Assembly: GCA_017744805.1 (NCBI GenBank)
Contig: JAGIAP010000009.1
Location: 4,011-37,560, forward strand
Length of the DNA: 33,550 bases
Reading direction: 5' to 3'
Source of the DNA: Chitinophagaceae bacterium
Lineage (GTDB): Bacteria > Bacteroidota > Bacteroidia > Chitinophagales > Chitinophagaceae
Both the position numbers and the translations under genes were made by a program. The notes below the pieces were generated by a model. It was not told the origin of the DNA. It saw only the letters and a list, made by a program, of their open reading frames with translations, and searched no databases. Numbering within the stretch: position 1 is the first letter of the stretch; every line of letters begins with the position of its first letter. Shown piece after piece: positions 3,982-17,936 of this stretch.

Positions 3982-4020
3982 GCCCTGGTACTATAATACT
4001 TTATAGAACCAGGGCTTTTT
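3982..4020 (+). terminator. Intrinsic terminator of the yfhO-like gene, overlapping the 3' end of the convergent GT2 CDS
   Basis: GCCCTGGTaCTATA-atactt-TATAGaACCAGGGC-TTTTT: 14-bp stem with one mismatch, followed by a T5 run. Confidence 0.75.
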
Positions 4021-5004
4021 GCTTAGCATCTTGGGAGCATACATCCAGCACCGGCCTACGTTTGCGGCCAGTTTTGAAGCCAGTCCAAAATGCCGGAAGG
4101 GGTTGCGGAGATGAAGGAGATTGTCAATCAGGCCAACTATGAAATATACAGGCACGGCAAAGGTGAAGCTGCAAAGTAGGAGAAGATACCAGCCGGCCCC
4201 ATATTGTTTGCGCACCCGGAGAAAATTGGAGATCATTATCTGAAAGCCCTTTCTGTCGTACAACTGCTGATATCCTTTACTGTTTGAACCGAATGTTTCA
4301 TTGGCTGTTTCTCCCTGTAAGTGTACAATATTGTACTGGCCAAAGATGGCCAGTTTACCAATTTTATATAAGCGGCTGCACCATTCAATTTCTTCGGCAT
4401 ACAGAAAAAAATCCTCATCCATCATGCCCGCTCTGTCCACTGCTGTTCTCTTCACCATCATGAAAGCCCCGTTGATCCAATCCACTTCGATAGTGGTGGA
4501 AGCATCCATCAGGCTGGGCTTTTTCACTTTGACCAGGTTTCCCGCAAATTTTATGAGACCTCCCAGGTAAGGCAATGCCAGAAGATGATTCAATCCCCCT
4601 TTCATGAAATAAGCACCGGAGATCTGGGGTGAGCCATCGGCATTCAGCAATTGCACGCCACAGGCCACATAATCCGTGGTGATGAAAGTACGGTAGCAGT
4701 TCCCGATAGCATTATCGCTGATGAGGGTATCGGAATTCAGCAGGAGGAACACATCGCCGGAGGCCTGTTTCATGCCTTCATTATTGCCCCTTGCAAAACC
4801 GGCATTGTACTGCATCTGCACCCATTTCACCTGGGGGAATTCAGTACAGATCAGACTTTGGCTGTCATCACCGGAGGCATTATCAACCACTATCACTTCA
4901 AAAGGATCGGAAGTGGGCTGAGCGAATACGGTCCGCAGGCAATCGGCCAGCAAACGAGGCGTTTTGTAATTGACGATTATGATCGAGTAACCGGGTTTTG
5001 TCAT
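3991..5004 (-). CDS. Glycosyltransferase family 2 (rhamnosyltransferase-like)
   Basis: MTKPGYSIIIVNYKTPRLLADCLRTVF...VIVVDNASGDDS...NAGFARGNNEG...LLLNSDT...DEDFFLYAEEIEWCSRL: GT2 Rossmann and DXD-type motifs. Confidence 0.92.
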   Translation of the reverse strand: MTKPGYSIIIVNYKTPRLLADCLRTVFAQPTSDPFEVIVVDNASGDDSQSLICTEFPQVKWVQMQYNAGFARGNNEGMKQASGDVFLLLNSDTLISDNAIGNCYRTFITTDYVACGVQLLNADGSPQISGAYFMKGGLNHLLALPYLGGLIKFAGNLVKVKKPSLMDASTTIEVDWINGAFMMVKRTAVDRAGMMDEDFFLYAEEIEWCSRLYKIGKLAIFGQYNIVHLQGETANETFGSNSKGYQQLYDRKGFQIMISNFLRVRKQYGAGWYLLLLCSFTFAVPVYFIVGLIDNLLHLRNPFRHFGLASKLAANVGRCWMYAPKMLSKKPWFYKVL

Positions 5005-5047
5005 GCGCCGTAAAGAAACAACAAAATCGGGAATTGCCTTCCTCCTT

Positions 5048-5998
5048 CTACCCTGTCCGCCTGAAAAGGCTGATGAAATAATTGAGCCCCATCAGCAGTT
5101 TGGACACCGGGCCGATCTTCAGCAAAGCAACGGGCATTTTCTGCTGGAAACGGATCATCTGCTTCAACAAGGGGCGGATAGGCTGGTGGTAATATTGCTG
5201 TACATCCGCTTCACTCCGCATATTGAGGTTACGATGGAGCCGCCAGTAATAATCATACACCAGGATATTCCGGAGGATGCCATATCCCATCTTATCGATC
5301 ATATGATAGCTTTCCGGTATCTCTACCGAAGCCACGCGGAATGTGTATTTGGTGACCTGCTCTTTGTTGATGCCAACAGAGATCAGTATGGTATCTATGT
5401 ATTGGAACTGTTGCAATTTCTGAAAGCAACGGATATAATATTCGAAGTCGACCACCCATTTCAATTCAGCATCATAGAAAAGATCAATATCCCTTTTTAC
5501 CAGGGTGCAACTGGGGTTACCCACATAATTGGCCTTGAAAAGATTCAGTGGGCTCTGGCGCAACAGGAAGAGCCCCCATTTTGAGCAGAACATTTTTTCA
5601 ATTTTACCTGTTTCCTGTTCCACATTCTGGTAGGCTGCAAAGAAAAAAGAGCAGGAAGGATGCTTTCGGGTAGCCTGTGCGTATTGTTCCAGGGCGTCCG
5701 GACCTTCAAACCAGTCGTCGTCATGCATGATCTTGATCCATGTTCCCCTGGCGCGCCGGATGGCTTCGTTCCAGTTCTCGGGTGTTCCCATCGCCTTTTC
5801 ATTCCTGAAATAATGCAAAGGGAACCGGGCGGCAAATTCCCGGCACAATTCCTGAACGCTGCTATCGGGACTATCATCCGTAACAATTACTTCAAAATCC
5901 CTCAGGGTTTGTACCTCGATAGACTGCAACAGTCTTTGCAGGTACTCCACCCGCTTGTAAGCCGGGATACAGATCGATATGAGAACTGGACTGCTCAT
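5048..5998 (-). CDS. Glycosyltransferase family 2
   Basis: MSSPVLISICIPAYKRVEYLQRLLQSIEVQTLRDFEVIVTDDSPDSS...WIKIMHDDDWF: GT-A fold motifs. The ORF track starts at 6055; the ATG at 5998 fits the usual GT2 N-terminus. Confidence 0.9.
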   Translation of the reverse strand: MSSPVLISICIPAYKRVEYLQRLLQSIEVQTLRDFEVIVTDDSPDSSVQELCREFAARFPLHYFRNEKAMGTPENWNEAIRRARGTWIKIMHDDDWFEGPDALEQYAQATRKHPSCSFFFAAYQNVEQETGKIEKMFCSKWGLFLLRQSPLNLFKANYVGNPSCTLVKRDIDLFYDAELKWVVDFEYYIRCFQKLQQFQYIDTILISVGINKEQVTKYTFRVASVEIPESYHMIDKMGYGILRNILVYDYYWRLHRNLNMRSEADVQQYYHQPIRPLLKQMIRFQQKMPVALLKIGPVSKLLMGLNYFISLFRRTG

Positions 5999-6154
5999 CA
6001 AAATAAAAAGATTACTACATTTAATTTCCTGTGTATATTGCGCTTTCGCTCGCAAAAATATTGTAAGCGCACAAATGTACGGTTGGTTTACCAGAAATTA
6101 CCTGAACATAAGCCAGCCGGCAGGGCAAATTATTCAGATAAACCCAGTTACAAG

Positions 6155-7036
6155 TTGAAAAGGCCGTTTGTTTATTTGGTGCGGAAAAGAGCATTGGGCG
6201 ACGTGCTGTGGATTGAGCCCGTGATACGCGCGCTGGCTGCACAAAATAAAAAGGTCATCGTGTACACTACGGTCAATGAATTGTTTGCCAACTATCCCCT
6301 CTCCAATGTCGTTTTCAAGAACAAGCTGAGCATATTCGAAAAAGCATTCCGGGCCATTGAGTCCTTTTGCAAAACTGCTTTCTTTTTCATCGATCTCGAC
6401 AATGCGTACGAGGAAAAACCTCAGGTACATTTCCTGAATGCTTACCAGGAAAAGGCCGCACTGCCACTAACCCGTGAGTATCCACGCTTGTACCTGAACA
6501 GCGAGGAAGAAAAAAGGCCGCCCCTCCCTGAAGGAAAATATGCCGTATTGCACCTGGAAAGCATGACGGCCAAAAATTATCGTAAAGTATATGGCGTAGA
6601 TTGGGAGAAAGTAGCCAGTCATATCAATCAGAAAGGGCTCACCATCTACCAGGTAGGTAATACCCCTCCACCCATTCCCGGTGTGGCGCATATCAAAACC
6701 AGCATCAGGGAAATGATAAGGCTCATCAGGCATAGCACCTTTTTTATTGGGCTGGACTCCGGGCCCAGCCATATTGCCGCCAGCCTGGGCATCCCTTCAC
6801 TGATCTTTTTCGGCGCCGTGAAGCCTGAGCTAAGGCATTTCCCGGAATTGTTCAAAGGCTATTTTTTGCAGCAGTACTGTGAGTTTGCCGGGTGCTATCA
6901 CGATATCACCAACAGTAAGTATGGCCCCGACTGCAAACTGGTGGGTAATGAAGGCATTCCCAAATGTTCATTGCATACCACCGGGTATGTGACAGAGCAT
7001 ATTGACCGATTGATAACAGAATATTCATTGATATGA
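6155..7036 (+). CDS. Glycosyltransferase family 9 (heptosyltransferase-like); start codon uncertain, possible N-terminal frameshift
   Basis: KRPFVYLVRKRALGDVLWIEPVIRALAAQNKKVIVYT...FFIGLDSGPSHIAASLGIPSLIFFGAV: GT9 signatures. The ORF-track ATG at 5660 lies antisense inside the divergent GT2 gene and is unlikely. TTG at 6155 gives (M)KRPFVYLVRKRALGDVLW. Confidence 0.85.
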   Translation: MKRPFVYLVRKRALGDVLWIEPVIRALAAQNKKVIVYTTVNELFANYPLSNVVFKNKLSIFEKAFRAIESFCKTAFFFIDLDNAYEEKPQVHFLNAYQEKAALPLTREYPRLYLNSEEEKRPPLPEGKYAVLHLESMTAKNYRKVYGVDWEKVASHINQKGLTIYQVGNTPPPIPGVAHIKTSIREMIRLIRHSTFFIGLDSGPSHIAASLGIPSLIFFGAVKPELRHFPELFKGYFLQQYCEFAGCYHDITNSKYGPDCKLVGNEGIPKCSLHTTGYVTEHIDRLITEYSLI

Positions 7037-7605
7037 TCCAAAAGTTCATCCGGAAAGTAAAGCGAAAGCTGGGCATCAAAGAAATGTATCCCTCCGAAAC
7101 CTCCAAGGTCCGTCACCTGGTGATCGGCTATTGCCAGGGAAATGGCTGTGATATTGGCTTTGGTGGCGACAAGATCAAGAAAGAGAACTGTATAGGGATC
7201 GATTACGAACAACCTTATGCCTATACCGGAAAGGATAAAGTGGATATTGCCGTGGATGTGATGAACGACAAGATACCGGTTGCCGATAACACCTACGATT
7301 ATGTGTATACCAGCCACCTGATCGAAGATTTCAAGAACACCACGCAGGCGCTGGAAGAGTTCATCCGCATTTTGAGATCAGGCGGGAACTTGATACTGGT
7401 ATTCCCCGATCAGAAAGTGTATGAAGTGTATTGCCGGAAAACCGGGCAGCCGTTGAATGAGCACCATGTGCATGCTGAGATGGGCCTGGCCTATATGACG
7501 GAAAAAATTGCGGGGATACCTTATATCACGCACCAGATACTGTTCCAAAGTAATTGCGAGATCGACTACAATGTTGTAATGGTTATAAAAGTGACTAAAA
7601 AATAA
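7033..7605 (+). CDS. Class I SAM-dependent methyltransferase (Methyltransf_11-like)
   Basis: 190 aa, GNGCDIGFGGDKIKKENCIGIDYEQ and IPVADNTYDYVYTSHLIEDF...ILRSGGNLILVFPD. Overlaps the GT9 stop by ATGA. Confidence 0.8.
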   Translation: MIQKFIRKVKRKLGIKEMYPSETSKVRHLVIGYCQGNGCDIGFGGDKIKKENCIGIDYEQPYAYTGKDKVDIAVDVMNDKIPVADNTYDYVYTSHLIEDFKNTTQALEEFIRILRSGGNLILVFPDQKVYEVYCRKTGQPLNEHHVHAEMGLAYMTEKIAGIPYITHQILFQSNCEIDYNVVMVIKVTKK

Positions 7606-7620
7606 AGCACCCTGACCTCC

Positions 7621-8538
7621 ATGAAAAAATTTATCCGCCATATATTAGGATATTTTGGATACGATATCATCAAAGTTGTTCCCACCTCCTTTCTAAAGAA
7701 GGAACAGCCCGTAACAGTGGGCAACTATACCATTACACTTCCTGTTCAGAACCCCCTGATAAAAACGTATGCCACCCAAAAGGATTTCGCCAGTGAGATC
7801 GGAAGGCTCACCGGCTATGTTCATCATAAATACCCTGGTCTCATTTTCGTAGATATCGGCGCCAATACCGGCGATACCATTGCCACCGTCAAGTCCGTAC
7901 AGGATGTGCCCATCCTTGCCGTAGAGGGAGATGAGTTTTCTTTCAGCTACCTGAAAAGGAATGCAGCACAATTCAGCAATGTGCATCTTGTGCAGCAATT
8001 CCTGGGAGAAAAATCAGGCACCATCAATGTGGACCTGCAAAAGAAGGGATGGAATACCACCCTCATACCCAACGCAGGCAATGAAAAGGTTACCATCAAG
8101 ACACTGGATACCGTATTGGAAGAATCTTCCCTGAGCAAACCTGCCATGAAATTGCTCAAGATCGATACGGAAGGATTCGATACGCTGATCATCAGGGGAG
8201 CCACTGCCTTGATAAGGGAAACCCGGCCGGTCATCTACTTTGAATACAACCGCGACAATATGGAAGCCATTCAGGAAAATGGCCTGCAAACTTTACTGGA
8301 CCTCTCCCGGGAGGGCTACGAAAGCATACTCTTTTTTGATGACAGGGGCCGCTTTGTTGTGTCCGGATCACTGTCGAACCGGGAACTGATCCAAGACCTG
8401 CACGATTATGCCGATGGCAGGAATGGTCTGATCTATTACTACAATATTTGCCTGATCCACGGCAGCGATGCAGACCTTGCAGCCAGCATCATAGCCGGAG
8501 AAAGGGCCTTCAGGAAGTCGCAGGAACCTTCCAAATGA
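7621..8538 (+). CDS. FkbM family methyltransferase
   Basis: FVDIGANTGDTIATV...VEGDEFSFSYLKRNA...LLKIDTEGFDTLIIRGA...PVIYFEYN: canonical FkbM motifs. Confidence 0.92.
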   Translation: MKKFIRHILGYFGYDIIKVVPTSFLKKEQPVTVGNYTITLPVQNPLIKTYATQKDFASEIGRLTGYVHHKYPGLIFVDIGANTGDTIATVKSVQDVPILAVEGDEFSFSYLKRNAAQFSNVHLVQQFLGEKSGTINVDLQKKGWNTTLIPNAGNEKVTIKTLDTVLEESSLSKPAMKLLKIDTEGFDTLIIRGATALIRETRPVIYFEYNRDNMEAIQENGLQTLLDLSREGYESILFFDDRGRFVVSGSLSNRELIQDLHDYADGRNGLIYYYNICLIHGSDADLAASIIAGERAFRKSQEPSK

Positions 8539-8589
8539 TCCCGTAATTGCAATTTTCCTTTATCTTGCCTGCTTTTAACAGTTACAGCC

Positions 8590-10080
8590 GTGGGCATCAT
8601 TCAAAAGCAAAGTATCAGGTCGAGCATCGTGATTGTAGCAGGATTTGCTATAGGGGCTATCAACATGATTGTACTAAGCCCCCGGCTGTTGACCACCGAG
8701 CAATTGGGACTAACCCGGATGCTGCTGGATACGGGCGCTACCCTGGCCAGCCTTTGCACTTTCGGTTGCCTGCCCATAATCTATAAATTCTTCCCTTTTT
8801 ATAAAAGCTATCTTCCCGCCCGCAAAAACGACCTGCCATTCATTACGCTGATGGTCTGTCTGGCCGGGTTTGTCATTGTGAGTATCGTTGGCTTTTCATT
8901 GAAGGATATCATCGTGCGAAAATTCAGCGAGCGGTCGCCCATGTTCGTTAAATATAGTTACCTGGTATATCCGCTCACATTTTTTATGCTCTTGTACTCC
9001 TGGCTGGAAGCATTTGCCTGGTCGTTCAAGAAAGGCGTCGTTTCCAATGCACTGCGTGAGACCATGGTACGGCTTATTTTCACGGTCCTGATCGTATTGC
9101 TGGCCTTTGAGGTGATAGGATCAGATCAATTCTTACACTTGTTCTCTGCTTCCTTTTTGTTGCCGGCGATCGTCCTGTTCATGGTGCTGCGGTTCACAGG
9201 AGGCTTCGAGTTCCATGCCACGCCCAGCACCGTTACACGGCGTTTGAAAGGTAAGATGATCAATTTCGGTTTATTCCTCTTTGGAGCGCAGTTCCTCAAT
9301 CTCCTTTCCCGTACTGTTGATACCTTCATTCTTTCCGCCAAGTCGGAACGCGGACTTACAGACACGGCCGTTTTCACCATCGCCACTTATGTGGTTACGC
9401 TGATGGAAATCCCACAACGCAGTATGAATTCCATTACCATCCCGGTGCTTGCGGAGGCCTGGAAGAACAAAGACCTGAAGCATATCAACCAGGTATATAC
9501 GAAAAGCGTTGCCAACCTGTTGGTGATCGGTTTGCTCATGTTCTCGCTGACACTCCTGAACGTCCATAACCTGGCCGCCTTCCTGGGCAGTGATTACAAG
9601 GGCATCGAGTGGGTGATCTTCCTGCTGGTGATCGGCAAGCTCATAGACCTGGGCACTGGTTCCAATTCACAGGTGATCGGCACCTCCAATTACTGGAAGG
9701 TTGATTTTACCACCAATGTGATCTATACGCTGTTGGCGCTGCCACTCAACTATATCCTCATTTCTCATTACGGCCTGATCGGGGCAGCTTACTCTACCCT
9801 GCTGTCGCTTACAGTTTACAACCTGATGCGCTTCGGGTTCCTATGGTACAAATTCGGACTACAGCCTTATACCTGGAAAGACCTGCAGGCCGTACTGCTT
9901 ACGGCTGTGGCTGTACCAATAGTTTATTATTTACCGTATGCCGGGTCCATTTACCTGGACACCGCCATCAGAACAGCGGTATTCTGCCTGATCTTTATAC
10001 CAGCCATTTATTATTTGAAAGTGTCTGCCGAGATCAATCAACTGATCGAAAAATACGTTCCCTTTTTACGGAAGAAGTGA
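8590..10080 (+). CDS. Oligosaccharide flippase / polysaccharide biosynthesis protein (Wzx-like, MATE/MVF superfamily)
   Basis: 496 aa polytopic protein MGIIQKQSIRSSIVIVAGFAIGAINMIVLSPRLLTTEQLGLTRMLLDTGATLASLCTFG... in a glycan cluster. GTG start. Confidence 0.88.
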   Translation: MGIIQKQSIRSSIVIVAGFAIGAINMIVLSPRLLTTEQLGLTRMLLDTGATLASLCTFGCLPIIYKFFPFYKSYLPARKNDLPFITLMVCLAGFVIVSIVGFSLKDIIVRKFSERSPMFVKYSYLVYPLTFFMLLYSWLEAFAWSFKKGVVSNALRETMVRLIFTVLIVLLAFEVIGSDQFLHLFSASFLLPAIVLFMVLRFTGGFEFHATPSTVTRRLKGKMINFGLFLFGAQFLNLLSRTVDTFILSAKSERGLTDTAVFTIATYVVTLMEIPQRSMNSITIPVLAEAWKNKDLKHINQVYTKSVANLLVIGLLMFSLTLLNVHNLAAFLGSDYKGIEWVIFLLVIGKLIDLGTGSNSQVIGTSNYWKVDFTTNVIYTLLALPLNYILISHYGLIGAAYSTLLSLTVYNLMRFGFLWYKFGLQPYTWKDLQAVLLTAVAVPIVYYLPYAGSIYLDTAIRTAVFCLIFIPAIYYLKVSAEINQLIEKYVPFLRKK

Positions 10081-10158: not shown

Positions 10159-13100
10159 ATGATGAAATTCATCTTGGCCATTGTATTATGGCTGACCAGT
10201 GTGGTTGGCAATGCGCAGGTAATTGCAGATTTCAGTATTCCCGATACGGTTTGTATGAATGCACCCGTGCAGATCACTAACAATTCCATCGGCGCCACAA
10301 CTTATTTCTGGAATTTCTGCACTGCCAATCTCGCCAATGCTCCTTCCGTTTCCAATCTCAATATCAGCGGCGCCAACTTCAACTGGCCGGTATTCATGGA
10401 CTATGTGTATGATAACGGGAACTACTACGGTTTTGTGACCAACTACATTGGTGGGAACCTGGTGAGGCTCGATTTTGGCAATAGCTTGCTCAATACACCT
10501 ACCGGCACCAACCTGGGTAATTTCGGAGGGATCATCCCAGCTTCTATCGGCACAGAGGGGATACAGGTAGTTAAGCAGAACGGGCAATGGTTTGCGATCA
10601 TAGTAGGTGGCAATGCCGCGCTGACAGACAAACCCAGGATATTGAAGATCGCCTTCGGGGCCAATATAACCAATCCCGCTCCGGTTGCCACCAACTGGGG
10701 TAACCTGGGGAATATGGACCAACCGGTTGACCTGCACCTATACGAAGATGCGGGCCATTGGTTTGGTTTTACGCTTAATGCTGAAGCCAATACCGTCACC
10801 AGATTCGATTTCACCAACAGCTTCAACAATATACCAACGGGCACCAGCCTGGGCAACCTGGGCTCGCTCAGTTACCCTACCGGTATCTACGTAACTCAGG
10901 AAGCTGGGAGCTGGTATGCTTTCATCGTCAACGGGGGCGATAACTCCCGTAACAACGCATTCAACTCTTCTCTCACCCGGCTCGATTTCGGTAACTCCCT
11001 CAACAATATGCCTACCGGGGTGAACCTGGGAAATCCTGGTGGACTGCTCAACCATCCCCGCGATCTTACCATCATGAAATCCTGCGAGCAGATCATCGGG
11101 TTTGCCGTGAATGCCGGGAACAATGATGCAAATATTGTAAGAATGGATTTCAACAATCTGCTCACCTCCACTCCAGCAGGATCGGTAGCAGCTAATCTCG
11201 GCAACGGTACCTTTCCCCATTGCATCTCCAAACTTTTCAGGGACAAATCGGATGTATATGGCTTTGTAGCCAATGTGGGTACAGGTTCGCTGATGCGTCT
11301 CCGTTTTCCCGGATGCTCCAATTCCAATATCAGCTCCGGCACCGCGAAAGATCCCCTGCCCGTTACATATGATGCTCCCGGCACCTACAATATCAACCTG
11401 ACCATCGATGATGGTTTGCCTACCCAGCAAATGGTCTGTAAGAAAGTAGTGGTATTACCCTCATATATATCCGATTTCAATTACGAACAGGATATATGTG
11501 ATCCGTTATCCGTGAAGTTCATCAATACCAATCCGGCCATTCCTGCGCCCTATTGGATCTTTGGAGATGGCAATATCAATAGCACCACATTCACCCCCAC
11601 CCATCACTATGCTGCTTTCGGCAACTATACCGTAAGGTTTGCAGTAGCGCAAGACAAATTCAAATGCTCAGATACCATCACCAAAGTGATCTCCCTTTCC
11701 GTAGATAAAAAGGATATAGTACTTACTCCGGACACCGTGATCTGCAAAGGGAGCACCAAGCAACTCAGGGCAAAGGACGGACTGGCCTATTGCTGGACAC
11801 CCAATCTCTATCTCAGCAATGCCTCCGACGCCAACCCGATCACTTCTACACCTGTTGACATCACCTATTATTGCACCTCACTCATCAGGGGCGCCAACCT
11901 GGTGGTGAACGGGGATTTTAGTGCTGGCAATACAGGTTTCATTTCAGACTACCTATACGCCCTTCCTCCCAATATGCATGAAAGCGAATACTTTGTGGGG
12001 CCCAGTGCACCGATCTGGCACCCCGGTATGTCGGACTGCCCGGACCATACCGGCAATAATGGTAATATGATGCTGGTGAATGGAGCTACCGTGCCCAACG
12101 TACGGGTATGGGCGCAAACCATCACGGTGAAGCCCAATACCAATTACGAATTCTCTGCCTGGGTACAAACACTGAACAATGCATCACCGGCGGACCTACG
12201 CTTCAGTATCAATGGCCAGCCGCTGGGCCCTCCGCTGGTTTCCGGGGCAGCCTGCGACTGGAAGCAATGCTTCGCCACCTGGAATTCCGGTAACCAAACC
12301 TCGGTTACCATCACCCTGAACAATATGAGCCTGTCATATGCCGGTAATGATTTCGGCCTGGATGATATCTCGTTCTCGGAAGTAAGGATACAGCGCGACA
12401 GTGTAAAGATCTCCATCGATACACCTGATGTGAATACACGCACAGACACTACCCTCTGTCACAAAGGCTCAGTGAAACTCTCCACCTCAGGCGCCAATAC
12501 CTGGAGCTGGACGCCTGCTACCGGGCTCTCTGATCCGAATATTGCAGATCCTATCGCTACCCCTGCCATCACTACCGAGTATGAAGTAGCAGGCACCAAC
12601 CAGTACGGCTGCGTAGCAAAAGATACAGTGCTCATCACCGTTATACCACCGCTTCCTCTGGATATCACTCCGGACACTACGGTGTGTACCAATATTCCGG
12701 TGCAGCTCAGGGCCTTTAGCGCCGGCAATCCAATATACCACTGGTCTCCCGCTGCCAACCTGAATAACCCGGGTATACCCAACCCTGTGGCTTCTCCTAA
12801 AAGCCCCACAAAATATTATGTTGATCTAACGGACAACAATAACTGCATAACCAGTGATTCCATTATGGTGGATATCGTGCCCCGGCCTGCATTCACGGCC
12901 AAAGGCGCTGCGGCAGTCTGTTACGACACGGAAACAAAGCTGGAAGCCTCCGGAGGCGACAACTACCTCTGGTCCCCTTCAGACTACCTGGATGATCCGC
13001 AGAGCGCCACTCCCATCGTAAAGCCCAGATCAGCGGTAAGCTATAACGTATATATTTCCGAGAATACCTGCGGCTATGATACGCTCGTGCAATTTGCCCC

Positions 13101-13629
13101 CATGGTGGTAAATCCCCTTCCTATTGTAACAGCTATGAAAGAGACCGATATCAATTGTGTGATCCGCAGCGCCCAACTAAGGGCGGGCGGCGCCAATAGT
13201 TATTCCTGGACGCCCGCTTCAGCGCTGGATAACCCGTACAGACGGGACCCCGTAGCCATCGTGGACAGCAGCACCCAATTCATAGTCACCGGCATCAATC
13301 GATACGGATGTGAAAGCAGTGACACACTGGTAGTGAATGTAACCAAAACGGGCACTCCTGTTTTTGAAGTGCCCAATGCATTTACGCCAAACGGGGATGG
13401 AAAGAATGATTGCTTCGGTATCAAAAAATGGGGCGTGGTGAAGCTCGAATCCCTTGAAGTATACAATCGCTGGGGACAAAAAATCTTCCAAACCAACAAA
13501 CCCAATGATTGTTGGGACGGAACCTTCCAGGGAAAACCACAGGGTGCCGGAGAATTCGTATACATTATCCGGGCATCCACTTTCTGTGGTCCCATTTTGC
13601 GGAAAGGCGTATTCTTCCTGATCAGGTAG
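10159..13629 (+). CDS. T9SS-exported multidomain surface protein: PKD domain, beta-propeller-like repeats, jelly-roll domain, Ig/SprB-like repeats and type B gliding-motility-associated C-terminal sorting domain
   Basis: Signal peptide MMKFILAIVLWLTSVVGNAQ. Repeats such as RLDFGNSL.N.PTG.NLGN.GG. Repeats PDTTVC...VQLRA...Y.WSPA..L..P...P.A.P...T.Y.V. C-terminus VPNAFTPNGDGKNDCF...LEVYNRWGQKIFQT...CWDGTFQGKPQGAGEFVYIIRAS...KGVFFLIR. Confidence 0.93.
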   Translation: MMKFILAIVLWLTSVVGNAQVIADFSIPDTVCMNAPVQITNNSIGATTYFWNFCTANLANAPSVSNLNISGANFNWPVFMDYVYDNGNYYGFVTNYIGGNLVRLDFGNSLLNTPTGTNLGNFGGIIPASIGTEGIQVVKQNGQWFAIIVGGNAALTDKPRILKIAFGANITNPAPVATNWGNLGNMDQPVDLHLYEDAGHWFGFTLNAEANTVTRFDFTNSFNNIPTGTSLGNLGSLSYPTGIYVTQEAGSWYAFIVNGGDNSRNNAFNSSLTRLDFGNSLNNMPTGVNLGNPGGLLNHPRDLTIMKSCEQIIGFAVNAGNNDANIVRMDFNNLLTSTPAGSVAANLGNGTFPHCISKLFRDKSDVYGFVANVGTGSLMRLRFPGCSNSNISSGTAKDPLPVTYDAPGTYNINLTIDDGLPTQQMVCKKVVVLPSYISDFNYEQDICDPLSVKFINTNPAIPAPYWIFGDGNINSTTFTPTHHYAAFGNYTVRFAVAQDKFKCSDTITKVISLSVDKKDIVLTPDTVICKGSTKQLRAKDGLAYCWTPNLYLSNASDANPITSTPVDITYYCTSLIRGANLVVNGDFSAGNTGFISDYLYALPPNMHESEYFVGPSAPIWHPGMSDCPDHTGNNGNMMLVNGATVPNVRVWAQTITVKPNTNYEFSAWVQTLNNASPADLRFSINGQPLGPPLVSGAACDWKQCFATWNSGNQTSVTITLNNMSLSYAGNDFGLDDISFSEVRIQRDSVKISIDTPDVNTRTDTTLCHKGSVKLSTSGANTWSWTPATGLSDPNIADPIATPAITTEYEVAGTNQYGCVAKDTVLITVIPPLPLDITPDTTVCTNIPVQLRAFSAGNPIYHWSPAANLNNPGIPNPVASPKSPTKYYVDLTDNNNCITSDSIMVDIVPRPAFTAKGAAAVCYDTETKLEASGGDNYLWSPSDYLDDPQSATPIVKPRSAVSYNVYISENTCGYDTLVQFAPMVVNPLPIVTAMKETDINCVIRSAQLRAGGANSYSWTPASALDNPYRRDPVAIVDSSTQFIVTGINRYGCESSDTLVVNVTKTGTPVFEVPNAFTPNGDGKNDCFGIKKWGVVKLESLEVYNRWGQKIFQTNKPNDCWDGTFQGKPQGAGEFVYIIRASTFCGPILRKGVFFLIR

Positions 13630-14383
13630 TAGCAGGACTGGACGACAATGTGCCGATCAGCTCCAGGAATTTTGCCAGGCCTCTTCGCTTGGCCTCATCC
13701 AGTTCATAACTGATATTCTTTGTGTAGTATTCGTGCAGATCGTAGACGCTGTAAGGGTTTGCGGCCACCACTTCATCGATATGGTTCAGCCCTTCCCGGT
13801 TGGCTTCGTCGAAAGCTTTCACGAATGCTTCGGGCAGTGGCTTATTGCTCACCCAGGCTGCAAATACGAATGGCAGGCCAGTATGCGCCATCCAGGCTTC
13901 TCCCAGGTCATAGATGTATTTGCTTTTGTGGCGCTGCTCCAGGGCCCTGTCGCCGATCACTACACCAGCCGTAGTTCCGATGATGCGGGAGCGGTAATCA
14001 TCCCTGGTATCCGTAATGATGGGGGTGATCTTCCAGTGATCACGCATCAGGATGCGAGCGAGGGTCACCGAGGTGCGGCTCTGGTAATCCAGCAGCACTT
14101 CCGTGATCTCTTCAACCGGCACATCACTGAACAGGCAAACCGAGGCCACGGGCTGGGTACAGCCAATACAGAAATTGGTATTGATATGGAACTCCTTCAT
14201 TTTTGGGATCACTGCTACGGGCACCAGTCCCATATCGATCTCGTCTTCCAGGAGCATGCGGGCGATATTTGCAGGATATTCGGGCACGGGCTCGATCTCG
14301 CTATACACGGGTGAATGCTCGATACCATACAATAATGGTTTGGTATTGAGATAATTCACGATTCCAACCTTAATCTTCTTCAA
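13622..14383 (-). CDS. mqnA: Menaquinone biosynthesis protein MqnA (chorismate dehydratase)
   Basis: KKIKVGIVNYLNTKPLLYGIE...VPEYPANIARMLLEDEIDMGLVPVAVIP...CIGCTQPVASVCLFSDVPVEEI: MqnA/MqnD fold. The ORF track starts at 14464, but a TTG start at 14383 fits a promoter at 14403-14434. Confidence 0.9.
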   Translation of the reverse strand: MKKIKVGIVNYLNTKPLLYGIEHSPVYSEIEPVPEYPANIARMLLEDEIDMGLVPVAVIPKMKEFHINTNFCIGCTQPVASVCLFSDVPVEEITEVLLDYQSRTSVTLARILMRDHWKITPIITDTRDDYRSRIIGTTAGVVIGDRALEQRHKSKYIYDLGEAWMAHTGLPFVFAAWVSNKPLPEAFVKAFDEANREGLNHIDEVVAANPYSVYDLHEYYTKNISYELDEAKRRGLAKFLELIGTLSSSPATT

Positions 14384-14402
14384 TTGATTTAATTTTACGC
14401 CG

Positions 14403-14434
14403 CAAAGGTAAAGGAATATCACTTTTAACATCAA
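14403..14434 (-). promoter_or_regulatory. Bacteroidota-type promoter for mqnA (TTG-N21-TACCTTTG)
   Basis: Minus strand: TTG (complement of 14432-14434), 21-nt spacer, TACCTTTG (complement of 14403-14410). Matches the TTG-N19-21-TAnnTTTG consensus. Confidence 0.6.
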
Positions 14435-14448
14435 CATTGAACTTGAAC

Positions 14449-15795
14449 ATGGAACTGAATACACTTACGGCCATTTCCCCTATTGACGGACGCTACCGTA
14501 ACCAGGTGCAGCACCTGCACGAATATTTTTCGGAATTCGCACTGATGAAGTACAGGGTGCTGGTTGAAGTGGAATACTTCCTGTTCCTGGGCGACAAGAA
14601 ATTCTTCTCCCTCCCCGCTGCCGTTCGCAAAGGCCTTCAGGCTGCCCTGGAGAACTTCAACCTCGAAGATGCCAAAACCATCAAGGAAACGGAGAAGACC
14701 ACCAATCACGATGTGAAAGCCGTTGAGTATTTCCTCAAAGCCAAACTGAAAGAACTGAAGGCCGAGCACCTGTCTGAATGGGTGCATTTCGGGCTCACTT
14801 CACAGGACATCAACAATACTGCCGTTCCGCTCTCCTGGAAACAGGCCGTGGAATTTGAATACCTGCCCGCCATGCTCAACCTGAACAAGCAGTTGGAACT
14901 GCTGGCAGACGAGTGGCGCGATATCCCGATGCTGGCCCGTACCCACGGACAACCGGCCTCACCCACCCGCCTGGGTAAGGAGATCCAGGTGTTCATCGAA
15001 CGCCTCAGCAACCAGATACAACAATGCATCGAGATACCCATCAGCGCCAAATTCGGTGGTGCTACCGGCAATTTCAATGCGCACAATGTGGCCTTCCCCA
15101 AAAAGAACTGGGTGAACCTGGGCAATGATTTCGTGGAAGGCGTACTGGGACTGAGCCGCCAGCAATTCACCACGCAGATAGAGCATTACGATAACCTGGC
15201 TGCCCATTTCGACGCCATGAAGCGGATCAACAATATCCTGATCGATTTCTCCCGCGATATGTGGACCTATATCTCCATGGATTATTTCAAGCAGCGCACT
15301 AAGAAGGGCGAGATCGGCTCTTCCGCCATGCCGCATAAAGTGAACCCAATCGATTTCGAGAATGCCGAAGGCAATCTCGGCATCGCCAATGCCCTGCTGG
15401 AGCACCTGGCCGGTAAGCTGCCTATCAGCCGCCTGCAGCGCGACCTGACCGATTCTACTGTACTCCGCAATATCGGCGTGCCTTTCGCCCATATCATCCT
15501 GGCCACCCGCTCCATCGAAAAAGGATTGAGCAAACTGGTATTGAATGATGAGAAGATCTATGACGACCTGGACAATAACTGGGCCGTGGTGGCGGAAGCT
15601 ATCCAAACCATCCTCCGCCGTGAGAACTATCCAAAGCCTTACGAGGCACTGAAGGAGCTCACTCGTGGCAAACAGGGGATCAACAAACAGTCCATCCACC
15701 AATTCATCGATAAATTAAAAGTTCCGGTAACTGTGCGTAAAGAGTTGAAGAAGATCACTCCGCATAATTATACTGGTGTGAACCCTGATTTCTGA
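14449..15795 (+). CDS. purB: Adenylosuccinate lyase
   Basis: MELNTLTAISPIDGRYRNQVQHLHEYFSEFALMKYRVLVEVEYFL...HFGLTSQDINNTA...TRTHGQPASPT-type motif...GSSAMPHKVNPIDFENAEGN (fumarase/aspartase signature). Confidence 0.97.
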   Translation: MELNTLTAISPIDGRYRNQVQHLHEYFSEFALMKYRVLVEVEYFLFLGDKKFFSLPAAVRKGLQAALENFNLEDAKTIKETEKTTNHDVKAVEYFLKAKLKELKAEHLSEWVHFGLTSQDINNTAVPLSWKQAVEFEYLPAMLNLNKQLELLADEWRDIPMLARTHGQPASPTRLGKEIQVFIERLSNQIQQCIEIPISAKFGGATGNFNAHNVAFPKKNWVNLGNDFVEGVLGLSRQQFTTQIEHYDNLAAHFDAMKRINNILIDFSRDMWTYISMDYFKQRTKKGEIGSSAMPHKVNPIDFENAEGNLGIANALLEHLAGKLPISRLQRDLTDSTVLRNIGVPFAHIILATRSIEKGLSKLVLNDEKIYDDLDNNWAVVAEAIQTILRRENYPKPYEALKELTRGKQGINKQSIHQFIDKLKVPVTVRKELKKITPHNYTGVNPDF

Positions 15796-16301
15796 GCAAA
15801 CAGGGCTCTCCACCAGAGCATATCACCTTTCTGATCATATTGTTCAAAGCCATTCTTCTGCAGCACGCGGATAGAAGCGGTATTTGTCCTGTCAGTTTCG
15901 GCGAGGATAGTGGAAATATCTTGCCGTTGCGAAGCCCATTTCACTATAGCTCCCACAGCTTCGGTCATATATCCTTTGTTGCGGGCCTCTTGCATGGTAC
16001 CATACCCGATCTCCACCATTCCGGCAGGGCCGGGCGCACCTTTGAAGCCCAGCTCGGCCACTACCAGGCGGGTCTTGTTCTCTATCACCAGCCAGAATGT
16101 AAAAAAGAGATATTGATCGCCCGGCACTTTTCGCATACAGGGCAGCGTGATGGAATTGACATAGCGCTTCACTTCCGGCGCTACGTTGCGATTAGTGAGG
16201 GTAAGCCCATGTTCCATTTCAAACAGATCATTGCCCTGGAGATACAATTCCAATGAAGCCACTGTGAGGGGCAGGATATAGAGTCTGTCTGTTTGCAGCA
16301 T
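15768..16301 (-). CDS. GNAT family N-acetyltransferase (RimJ/RimL-like)
   Basis: MLQTDRLYILPLTVASLELYL...ELGFKGAPGPAGMVEIGYGTMQEARNKGYMTEAVGAIVKWA...AETDRTNTASIRVLQKNGFEQ. Start at 16301 preferred over 16334. Confidence 0.85.
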   Translation of the reverse strand: MLQTDRLYILPLTVASLELYLQGNDLFEMEHGLTLTNRNVAPEVKRYVNSITLPCMRKVPGDQYLFFTFWLVIENKTRLVVAELGFKGAPGPAGMVEIGYGTMQEARNKGYMTEAVGAIVKWASQRQDISTILAETDRTNTASIRVLQKNGFEQYDQKGDMLWWRALFAQKSGFTPV

Positions 16302-16337
16302 ATGCTTAGTTTCGCTACTGCCCTCAAAGTACAATCT

Positions 16338-17936
16338 TTATACCGATTCCTTGTGGATCTCTGAAGTAAAGTGGAATTCGATGTCCGGATTATTGGTCCT
16401 TTCCGTATTCAAAAACCACTCGCTCTGAGCCAGATAGACGAGGTGACCGTCTTTATCGGTTGCGATATTATTGCTCTTGAAGCGGGTGAATTCATCCAGT
16501 TTCTTCGAGTCCTGGCTGGTGATCCAGCAGGCTTTGTAGAAAGGTTGGGCGCGGAACTCCACACTGGCGCCATATTCCTGGAGAAGGCGGTACTGGATCA
16601 CTTCAAATTGCAGTTCCCCTACGCAACCAATGATCTTTTTGTTGCCACCGAACTGGGTGAAAAGCTGGGCAACCCCTTCATCGGTCAATTGCATCAGACC
16701 CTTCTCCAATTGCTTGGTTTTCATTGGATCTTTGTTCACTACTTCTTTAAATATCTCAGGTGAGAAGGAAGGGATCCCGGTGAAATAGAAATTAGATCCT
16801 TCAGTCAATGTGTCCCCGATCTTGAAGTTACCGGTATCGAAGAGCCCCACCACATCGCCGGGGAATGCTTCATCGATCACATCCTTGTCGCGCGCGAGGA
16901 AGGTGTAAGGATTGCTGAAGCGAACGTCCTTGTCGAGGCGTACGTGATGGAAATATTTGTTACGCTCGAACTTGCCGGAGCATACACGGAGGAAAGCGAT
17001 CCTGTCGCGGTGCTTGGGATCCAGGTTGGCGTGGATCTTGAAAATGAATCCGGAGAATTTGTCCTCGTCGGGGCAAACCTCGCGCACGGAAGTGGGCCTG
17101 CAGCGAGGGATGGGCGCTACTCGGATAAAGGTATCCAGCATTTCACGCACACCGAAATTGTTGATGGCGGAACCGAAGAAAACAGGCGATACTTTACCGG
17201 CCAGGTAGCTGGTCACATCCAGCTCCCCGTTCACCCCGTCCACCAGTTCCACATCTTCACGTAAAAGATTGGCATCCTTTTCACCGAGCTTGGAATCAAG
17301 CACTTCGCTGCTGAGGTCGGTGATCTCCAGGCTATCCTCGTCGTCGGATGCTTTGGTGTTGGCGGTGAAGAGAACAAGGTTCTTATCGTAGAGATTGTAT
17401 ACCCCTTTGAAATCCTTGCCGCTATTGATGGGCCAGGTCATGGGGTGTAAAGATATCTTCAGTTCATTCTCGATCTCTTCGAGGAGGTCGAAGCGGTTCT
17501 TACCGTCGCGGTCCATTTTATTGATGAATACGATCACGGGGGTATCGCGCATGCGGCATACTTCCATGAGGCGACGGGTCTGGTCTTCCACCCCGTTCAC
17601 GGAGTCCACCACCAGGATAACGCTGTCCACGGCCGTGAGGGTGCGATAGGTATCTTCGGCAAAGTCCTTGTGACCGGGCGTATCCAGGAGGTTCACGAGG
17701 ATGCCTTTGTATTCAAAGCTCATCACGGAGGTGGCAACGGAGATACCACGCTGGCGCTCGATCTCCATGAAGTCTGAAGTTGCATGCTTCTTGATCTTAT
17801 TGCTCTTTACTGCACCGGCCGTTTGGATGGCGCCACCAAAGAGCAGGAATTTTTCCGTCAATGTGGTTTTACCGGCATCCGGGTGGGAAATGATCGCAAA
17901 GGTTCTTCTTTTCTGTATTTCTGCATTGTACTTCAT
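16338..17936 (-). CDS. prfC: Peptide chain release factor 3 (RF3)
   Basis: [35 protein letters not shown]...[19 protein letters not shown]...[23 protein letters not shown]3 translational GTPase. Confidence 0.96.

Follow-up and report, generated by a model that had tools for sequence, protein, structure and literature searches.

A probable T9SS-secreted stalk protein from a Chitinophagaceae bacterium with a predicted six-bladed propeller nested in a PKD domain and a CBM-like jelly roll nested in an Ig repeat

The window, the whole 33,550-nucleotide stretch of Chitinophagaceae DNA analysed here, contains an open frame at 10159-13629 on the forward strand that encodes a protein of 1156 residues. 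All stretches that a sequence-only reading had quoted from this protein, including the start of a PKD-like domain, the repeats, and the Ig repeat, are present in this frame. Upstream of the gene (window 3991-10080), a surface-glycan cluster was recognized by eye, comprising two family-2 glycosyltransferases on the reverse strand, a family-9 glycosyltransferase, two methyltransferases (one of FkbM type), and a polysaccharide flippase. These neighbors are common to only 1-5 of 76 related loci and are not conserved. After the gene (window 13622-17936) lie mqnA on the reverse strand, purB on the forward strand, and GNAT and prfC on the reverse strand. The presence of mqnA/purB near the family in 21 of the 76 related loci constitutes a conserved genomic address, which points to vertical inheritance of the locus.

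The protein carries export signals at both ends. Its N-terminus, MMKFILAIVLWLTSVVGNA followed by QV, is a signal peptide with a Gln directly after the predicted cleavage site, as is usual in Bacteroidota (the Q-rule, PMC5837995). At the C-terminus, Bac_Flav_CTERM/TIGR04131 scores 55.8 bits against a cut-off of 35 (E 3.7e-15) and CHU_C scores 64.9 bits against a cut-off of 27 (E 7.5e-18), which bears out the type B sorting domain originally read from the letters. SprA, the translocon of the T9SS, is encoded in the genome (TIGR04189, 2201 bits, above the cut-off; the gene is truncated by a contig end), and 12 sorting domains of type B pass the cut-off there, so that export of the protein by the T9SS is plausible; for GldM, a partial match only was found in this 89%-complete genome. 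From the signal peptide, the sorting domain, and the presence of SprA, we infer T9SS export, and by analogy with type B CTD proteins the product may be attached to the cell surface. Pfam analysis of the intact protein detected a second PKD domain (466-501), one Ig_7 domain (PF19081), and a partial CBM_4_9 match between them, and left residues 1-464 blank. The features are as follows, all on the forward strand:

10159..10215, +, signal peptide, residues 1-19 (predicted cleavage between GNA and Q20; sequence and inference)
10216..10320, +, PKD domain 1, N-terminal half (strands A, A', B, C), residues 20-54 (hhalign; ordered in the model)
10318..10320, +, C54, a cysteine at the neck (predicted to bond with C386)
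10321..11310, +, inserted six-bladed beta-propeller, residues 55-384, 330 aa (AlphaFold2; no Pfam family)
10345..10359, +, blade 6 closing ('velcro') strand, residues 63-67 (DSSP strand E44-48)
10387..10518, +, blade 1 (DSSP strands E58-101)
10552..10701, +, blade 2 (DSSP E113-162)
10723..10854, +, blade 3 (DSSP E170-213)
10876..11025, +, blade 4 (DSSP E221-270)
11056..11196, +, blade 5 (DSSP E281-327)
11215..11307, +, blade 6, three C-terminal strands, the fourth being at 10345-10359 (DSSP E334-364)
11311..11466, +, PKD domain 1, C-terminal half (C'/E, F, G), residues 385-436 (hhalign)
11467..11703, +, PKD domain 2, uninterrupted, residues 437-515 (Pfam PKD_4 E 1.4e-10)
11713..11895, +, host Ig repeat (CHU_C-associated, Ig_7-like), strands up to F, residues 519-579 (hhalign)
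11896..12384, +, inserted CBM4/16/22-like jelly roll, residues 580-742 (CBM_4_9, Foldseek, pLDDT)
12385..12426, +, last strand (G) of the host Ig, residues 743-756, RIQRDSVKISIDTP (Ig2 family alignment; model)
12427..13356, +, further uninterrupted Ig repeats, residues 757-1066 (Ig_7 E 9.2e-4 at 836-907; sequence)
13366..13629, +, type B T9SS sorting domain, residues 1070-1156, and stop codon (TIGR04131, CHU_C)

The first PKD domain appears to be divided by the propeller. The N-terminal piece, which ends in YFWNFC54, and the C-terminal piece, which holds the neck cysteine C386 and the G-strand cysteine C427, would make up a single PKD domain interrupted at the WDFGDG (C-C') loop, because the two pieces are complementary. 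In hhalign comparisons with the adjacent PKD2 family, half 1 covers columns 2-33 (E 3.2e-8) and half 2 covers columns 40-61 (E 1.8e-7) with no overlap, and the joined halves reach an E of 4.7e-12. Half 1 alone has no Pfam match and half 2 alone matches PF00801 at 0.09 and PKD_4 at 0.0083; joined in silico, the two score 24.9 bits with PF00801 against a cut-off of 23.5 (E 2e-5). Both halves are ordered in the AlphaFold2 model, with block pLDDT values of 88-97. Uninterrupted PKDs elsewhere in these proteins follow the pattern WDFGDG..ST..NP...Y...GTY.V.L and represent the empty site, and a search of the relatives for a propeller-free version of this specific split PKD found ordinary PKDs alone. 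The suggestion that the PKD-like domain resumes at GTAKDPLPVTYDAPGTYNINLTIDDG...CKKVVVLP agrees with the presence of that sequence and with the passing of the Pfam PKD cut-off by the joined halves. The split around the repeats was likewise upheld by the joined-half profiles, the uninterrupted homologs, and the co-occurrence of the halves with the propeller.

The AlphaFold2 model of residues 20-436 (417 aa), computed from an alignment of 92 sequences, has a pLDDT of 95.3 and a pTM of 0.91, with all residues at 70 or above. DSSP assigns to it five four-stranded blades and then three strands, the fourth of which is supplied from the N-terminal side (unit 44-48). This closing strand comes directly after the C strand of PKD domain 1, and in sequence it is similar to the d-strand motif found in the remaining repeats. 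Read from DSSP, pLDDT, and the homologs, the predicted fold has six blades with a circular 3+1 closure. The 'about six' propeller-like repeats of the sequence-only reading are accordingly counted as six: five complete blades and a sixth that the N-terminal strand closes. For the AlphaFold check that it had proposed, ordered halves and repeats closing 3+1 are the opposite of a sequential or unclosed arrangement.

The insert matched no named propeller family in Pfam, NCBIfam, or PDB sequences: none of the 92 members matches a Pfam family at the propeller, and a PDB sequence search with the propeller profile returned no credible relative. Foldseek with the propeller model recovered LGI1 EPTP, GH43, phytase, and others at 7-13% identity and TM of at most about 0.6. 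The LGI1 EPTP, GH43/GH32, and Bacillus phytase propellers share the fold with the insert but differ from it at these low values and mostly in blade number, and sequence homology to them was not detected. Self-BLAST of the protein did not find the internal repeat, because the blades are too divergent, whereas the profile and the model do show it. The invariant residues are mainly of structural types (R, G, P, F, C, and W).

C54 and C386 flank the insertion point of the propeller, one on each side, and are predicted from the sequences to form a disulfide at the propeller neck. Among 92 units, both cysteines are present in 84 and neither in 8, with no unit carrying a single one; L011 also has neither. 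Loss of the pair takes four changes on the best tree, of which well-supported branches force one. In the coupling analysis, the pair (C35-C367 in unit numbering) ranks 7 of about 85,000 in a shallow alignment of about 83 effective sequences. Furthermore, couplings between half 1 and half 2 are 1.5-3.5 times denser than the half-insert controls at the same depth of about 83 effective sequences. We take these couplings on the neck pair and the PKD halves as supportive only.

A second nesting is predicted in the first Ig repeat. Residues 519-579 match Ig2, the family of the following tandem Ig repeat in these proteins, in hhalign with an E of 3.5e-21, residues 743-756 align at the end of the same family, and joining the two improves the match to 6.4e-24 over 74 columns; the joined halves of the window copy have no Pfam match. 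The same Ig, recognized by its YCWSP motif, occurs in L009, L110, and L074 with a loop of about 10 aa replacing the jelly roll. The AlphaFold2 model of the split Ig and jelly roll has a pLDDT of 92.5 and a pTM of 0.75, the latter likely due to inter-bead flexibility, since the next Ig bead was also modelled. In this model, a single strand of 23 residues (732-754) continues from the end of the jelly roll into Ig strand G. Foldseek comparisons of the jelly roll gave CBM16 at TM(target) of about 0.65 and CBM22 at 0.65, and CBM4 was also found. In sequence, 16 of 28 jelly-roll members match CBM_4_9 at E 0.01 or better; the window copy, at 22.9 bits (E 1.2e-4), does not reach the CBM_4_9 (PF02018) cut-off of 25.9 bits. 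On the basis of the model, residues 580-742 are predicted to be a 163-aa CBM4/16/22-like jelly roll nested in the Ig F-G loop. The earlier proposal that the segment NLVVNGDFS...FGLDDISFSEV interrupts an Ig domain therefore stands, with the stretch present, the Ig halves matching when joined, and empty-site relatives in existence. Its companion, that QRDSVKISI is the last Ig strand, fits the jelly roll's last strand running straight into the Ig strand.

Profile scanning of genome contigs, with eight alignment rows as the query, identified 76 loci, mostly in Chitinophagaceae and some in Bacteroidales; full-length split units number 92, from about 70 loci, a recurrence that goes beyond chance. 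Bacteroidia-wide, 125 of 132 distinct propeller regions are preceded by PKD half 1 and followed by half 2, and none of the 132 is free-standing; the remaining 7, all truncated or divergent, still show a recognizable half. When the insert was searched by itself, matches came from 33 of 395 Bacteroidia genomes (about 8% of the sample), spread over 28 of 197 genera, and a phylum-wide sample of 396 genomes contained no further class with the insert. The PKD-propeller composite also occurs in tandem, as two copies or, in L111, three, with a spacing of often only about 8 aa, and L011 is a lipoprotein-like ORF of 460 aa consisting of the PKD-propeller unit alone. The same jelly roll occurs in L049 and L059 at the equivalent position of another type of Ig-like domain (assigned by eye, with weak Pfam matches), and L006 has the jelly roll without the propeller unit. 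From these other hosts and the propeller-free case, the propeller and jelly-roll composites therefore appear to shuffle independently. Computationally, both hosts are split, the inserts have two folds, the insertion points are constant, and the composites are reused as units. Some relatives possess N-terminal Laminin_G_3 lectin-type domains, which fit a glycan-binding surface protein.

Several further arrangements were noted among the relatives. Three jelly-roll-in-Ig composites occur within a single protein at L061:4783-10581 and at L084:247-7908. A second, divergent group (L124-L150) consists of PKD-repeat proteins of 1330-1420 aa across Bacteroidia, with a PKD-nested propeller at the start. 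In L013, L076, L079, and L083, a remoter jelly-roll family (FAIDDITFRPCG) follows LCTGSLGDPIVN and is seemingly not Ig-nested. The match in Pseudoflavitalea rhizosphaerae (L088:6001-7234) spans 1234 bases, which is not a multiple of 3, and its frame opens inside the propeller; this is either a gene frameshift or an assembly error, and L004 looks alike.

These results bear on three other ways of reading the protein. The domains might be sequential and independent, with a truncated PKD-like cap, the propeller, and a small beta domain followed by the Ig and the jelly roll end to end, as the Pfam result on the intact protein would suggest by showing no N-terminal PKD and merely a partial CBM_4_9. 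The halves, however, are complementary, non-overlapping parts of one PKD and one Ig, the PKD halves always lie on either side of the insert, uninterrupted versions of the hosts exist, and both halves are confident in the models, which leaves this arrangement the least probable of all, with hardly any weight. We give somewhat more credit, though still little, to an enzyme in which the propeller is a catalytic domain of glycoside hydrolase or phytase type and the jelly roll its carbohydrate-binding module. CBMs are commonly found with hydrolases, and the propeller fold matches include GH43/GH32/GH62, sialidase-type, and Bacillus phytase structures; yet at 7-13% identity their TM values are 0.35-0.6 and many have fewer blades, the propeller has no sequence match to solved enzymes (PDB) or to Pfam enzyme families, and no conserved acid triad was noticed among the mainly structural invariant residues.

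The protein could also be a component of the T9SS machinery or of envelope assembly rather than an adhesin. PorZ offers a precedent, a T9SS-exported protein in which one propeller is nested in a second, with 3+1 closure (PMC5121618), and the family's constant position next to mqnA/purB (21 of 76 loci) would suit such a role. The composite, however, was detected in no more than 33 of 395 Bacteroidia genomes (28 of 197 genera), and its architecture is highly variable, whereas a machinery part should be conserved; we regard this assignment as very improbable.

We consider it probable that the protein is a T9SS-secreted adhesin, in which a stalk of PKD/Ig beads shows two side-mounted heads by means of domain insertion. 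The propeller would emerge from PKD domain 1 at its C-C' loop, and the CBM-like jelly roll from the first Ig repeat at its F-G loop. The sandwich of each host would close round the insert, so that the stalk may be continuous and the inserts may need no linker of their own. The 3+1 self-closure of the propeller would sit exactly where the chain re-enters the host, the predicted C54-C386 disulfide would staple the propeller neck, and tension along the stalk may by-pass the heads. Lateral display of putative glycan-binding heads on the stalk is the most likely role; glycan binding is suggested for the jelly roll by its fold and, more faintly, for the propeller. A further-reaching idea, which we hold to be possible but doubtful, is that the PKD-propeller is an obligate composite whose neck disulfide and host form a mechanical by-pass carrying the heads unloaded, and that Bacteroidota follow a reuse rule with different heads and hosts. 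The hosts under this rule would be PKD for the propeller, inserted at the C-C' loop, and two or more different Ig types for the CBM-like jelly roll, inserted at the F-G loop.

In overall plan, the protein resembles the PKD/Ig-repeat T9SS proteins (CHU_C/TIGR04131, SprB-like adhesins), with a signal peptide, tandem PKD and CHU_C-associated Ig beads, and a type B CTD. In contrast to SprB-like type B adhesins, two of its beads hold a whole inserted domain, and its propeller is absent from Pfam. CBM4/9, CBM16, and CBM22 share the jelly-roll fold and a weak family-level sequence match with the second insert; the window copy differs in lying below the Pfam cut-off and nested in an Ig F-G loop. In the integrin beta subunit, an I-like domain is inserted in the hybrid Ig domain. 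The pilus tip adhesins RrgA and GBS104 have a VWA head with inserted arms (PMC5536039). RrgA/GBS104 and integrin are alike in design, with a ligand-binding head placed on an Ig-type stalk by domain insertion (no homology is claimed), while the inserted folds, the phylum, and the secretion route are other here. PorZ of Porphyromonas gingivalis, in which a seven-bladed propeller is nested in another propeller (PMC5121618), is T9SS-exported, as the present protein probably is, and also of domain-in-domain construction, and its propeller is closed by an N-terminal strand and three C-terminal strands (PMC5121618). The present propeller differs in being six-bladed and set in a PKD sandwich, and no sequence relation to PorZ was found.

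Ig-type stalk domains that hold a nested head are thus already known, as are nested propellers that close 3+1 (PorZ, PMC5121618). We found no description of a PKD-nested propeller in the open-access literature, where this family of propellers, the PKD domain as its obligate host, and the nesting of a CBM-like fold in an Ig all appear to be undescribed. Because domain databases scan linearly, Pfam sees neither the split hosts nor the propeller of this protein, and such proteins have likely been described merely as PKD- or sorting-domain proteins. Recognition of the composite would add a putative new propeller family and a probable binding head in Bacteroidia, and it supplies well-defined limits for constructs in structural and ligand studies. 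It also offers the idea that T9SS stalk proteins may mount heads without linkers.
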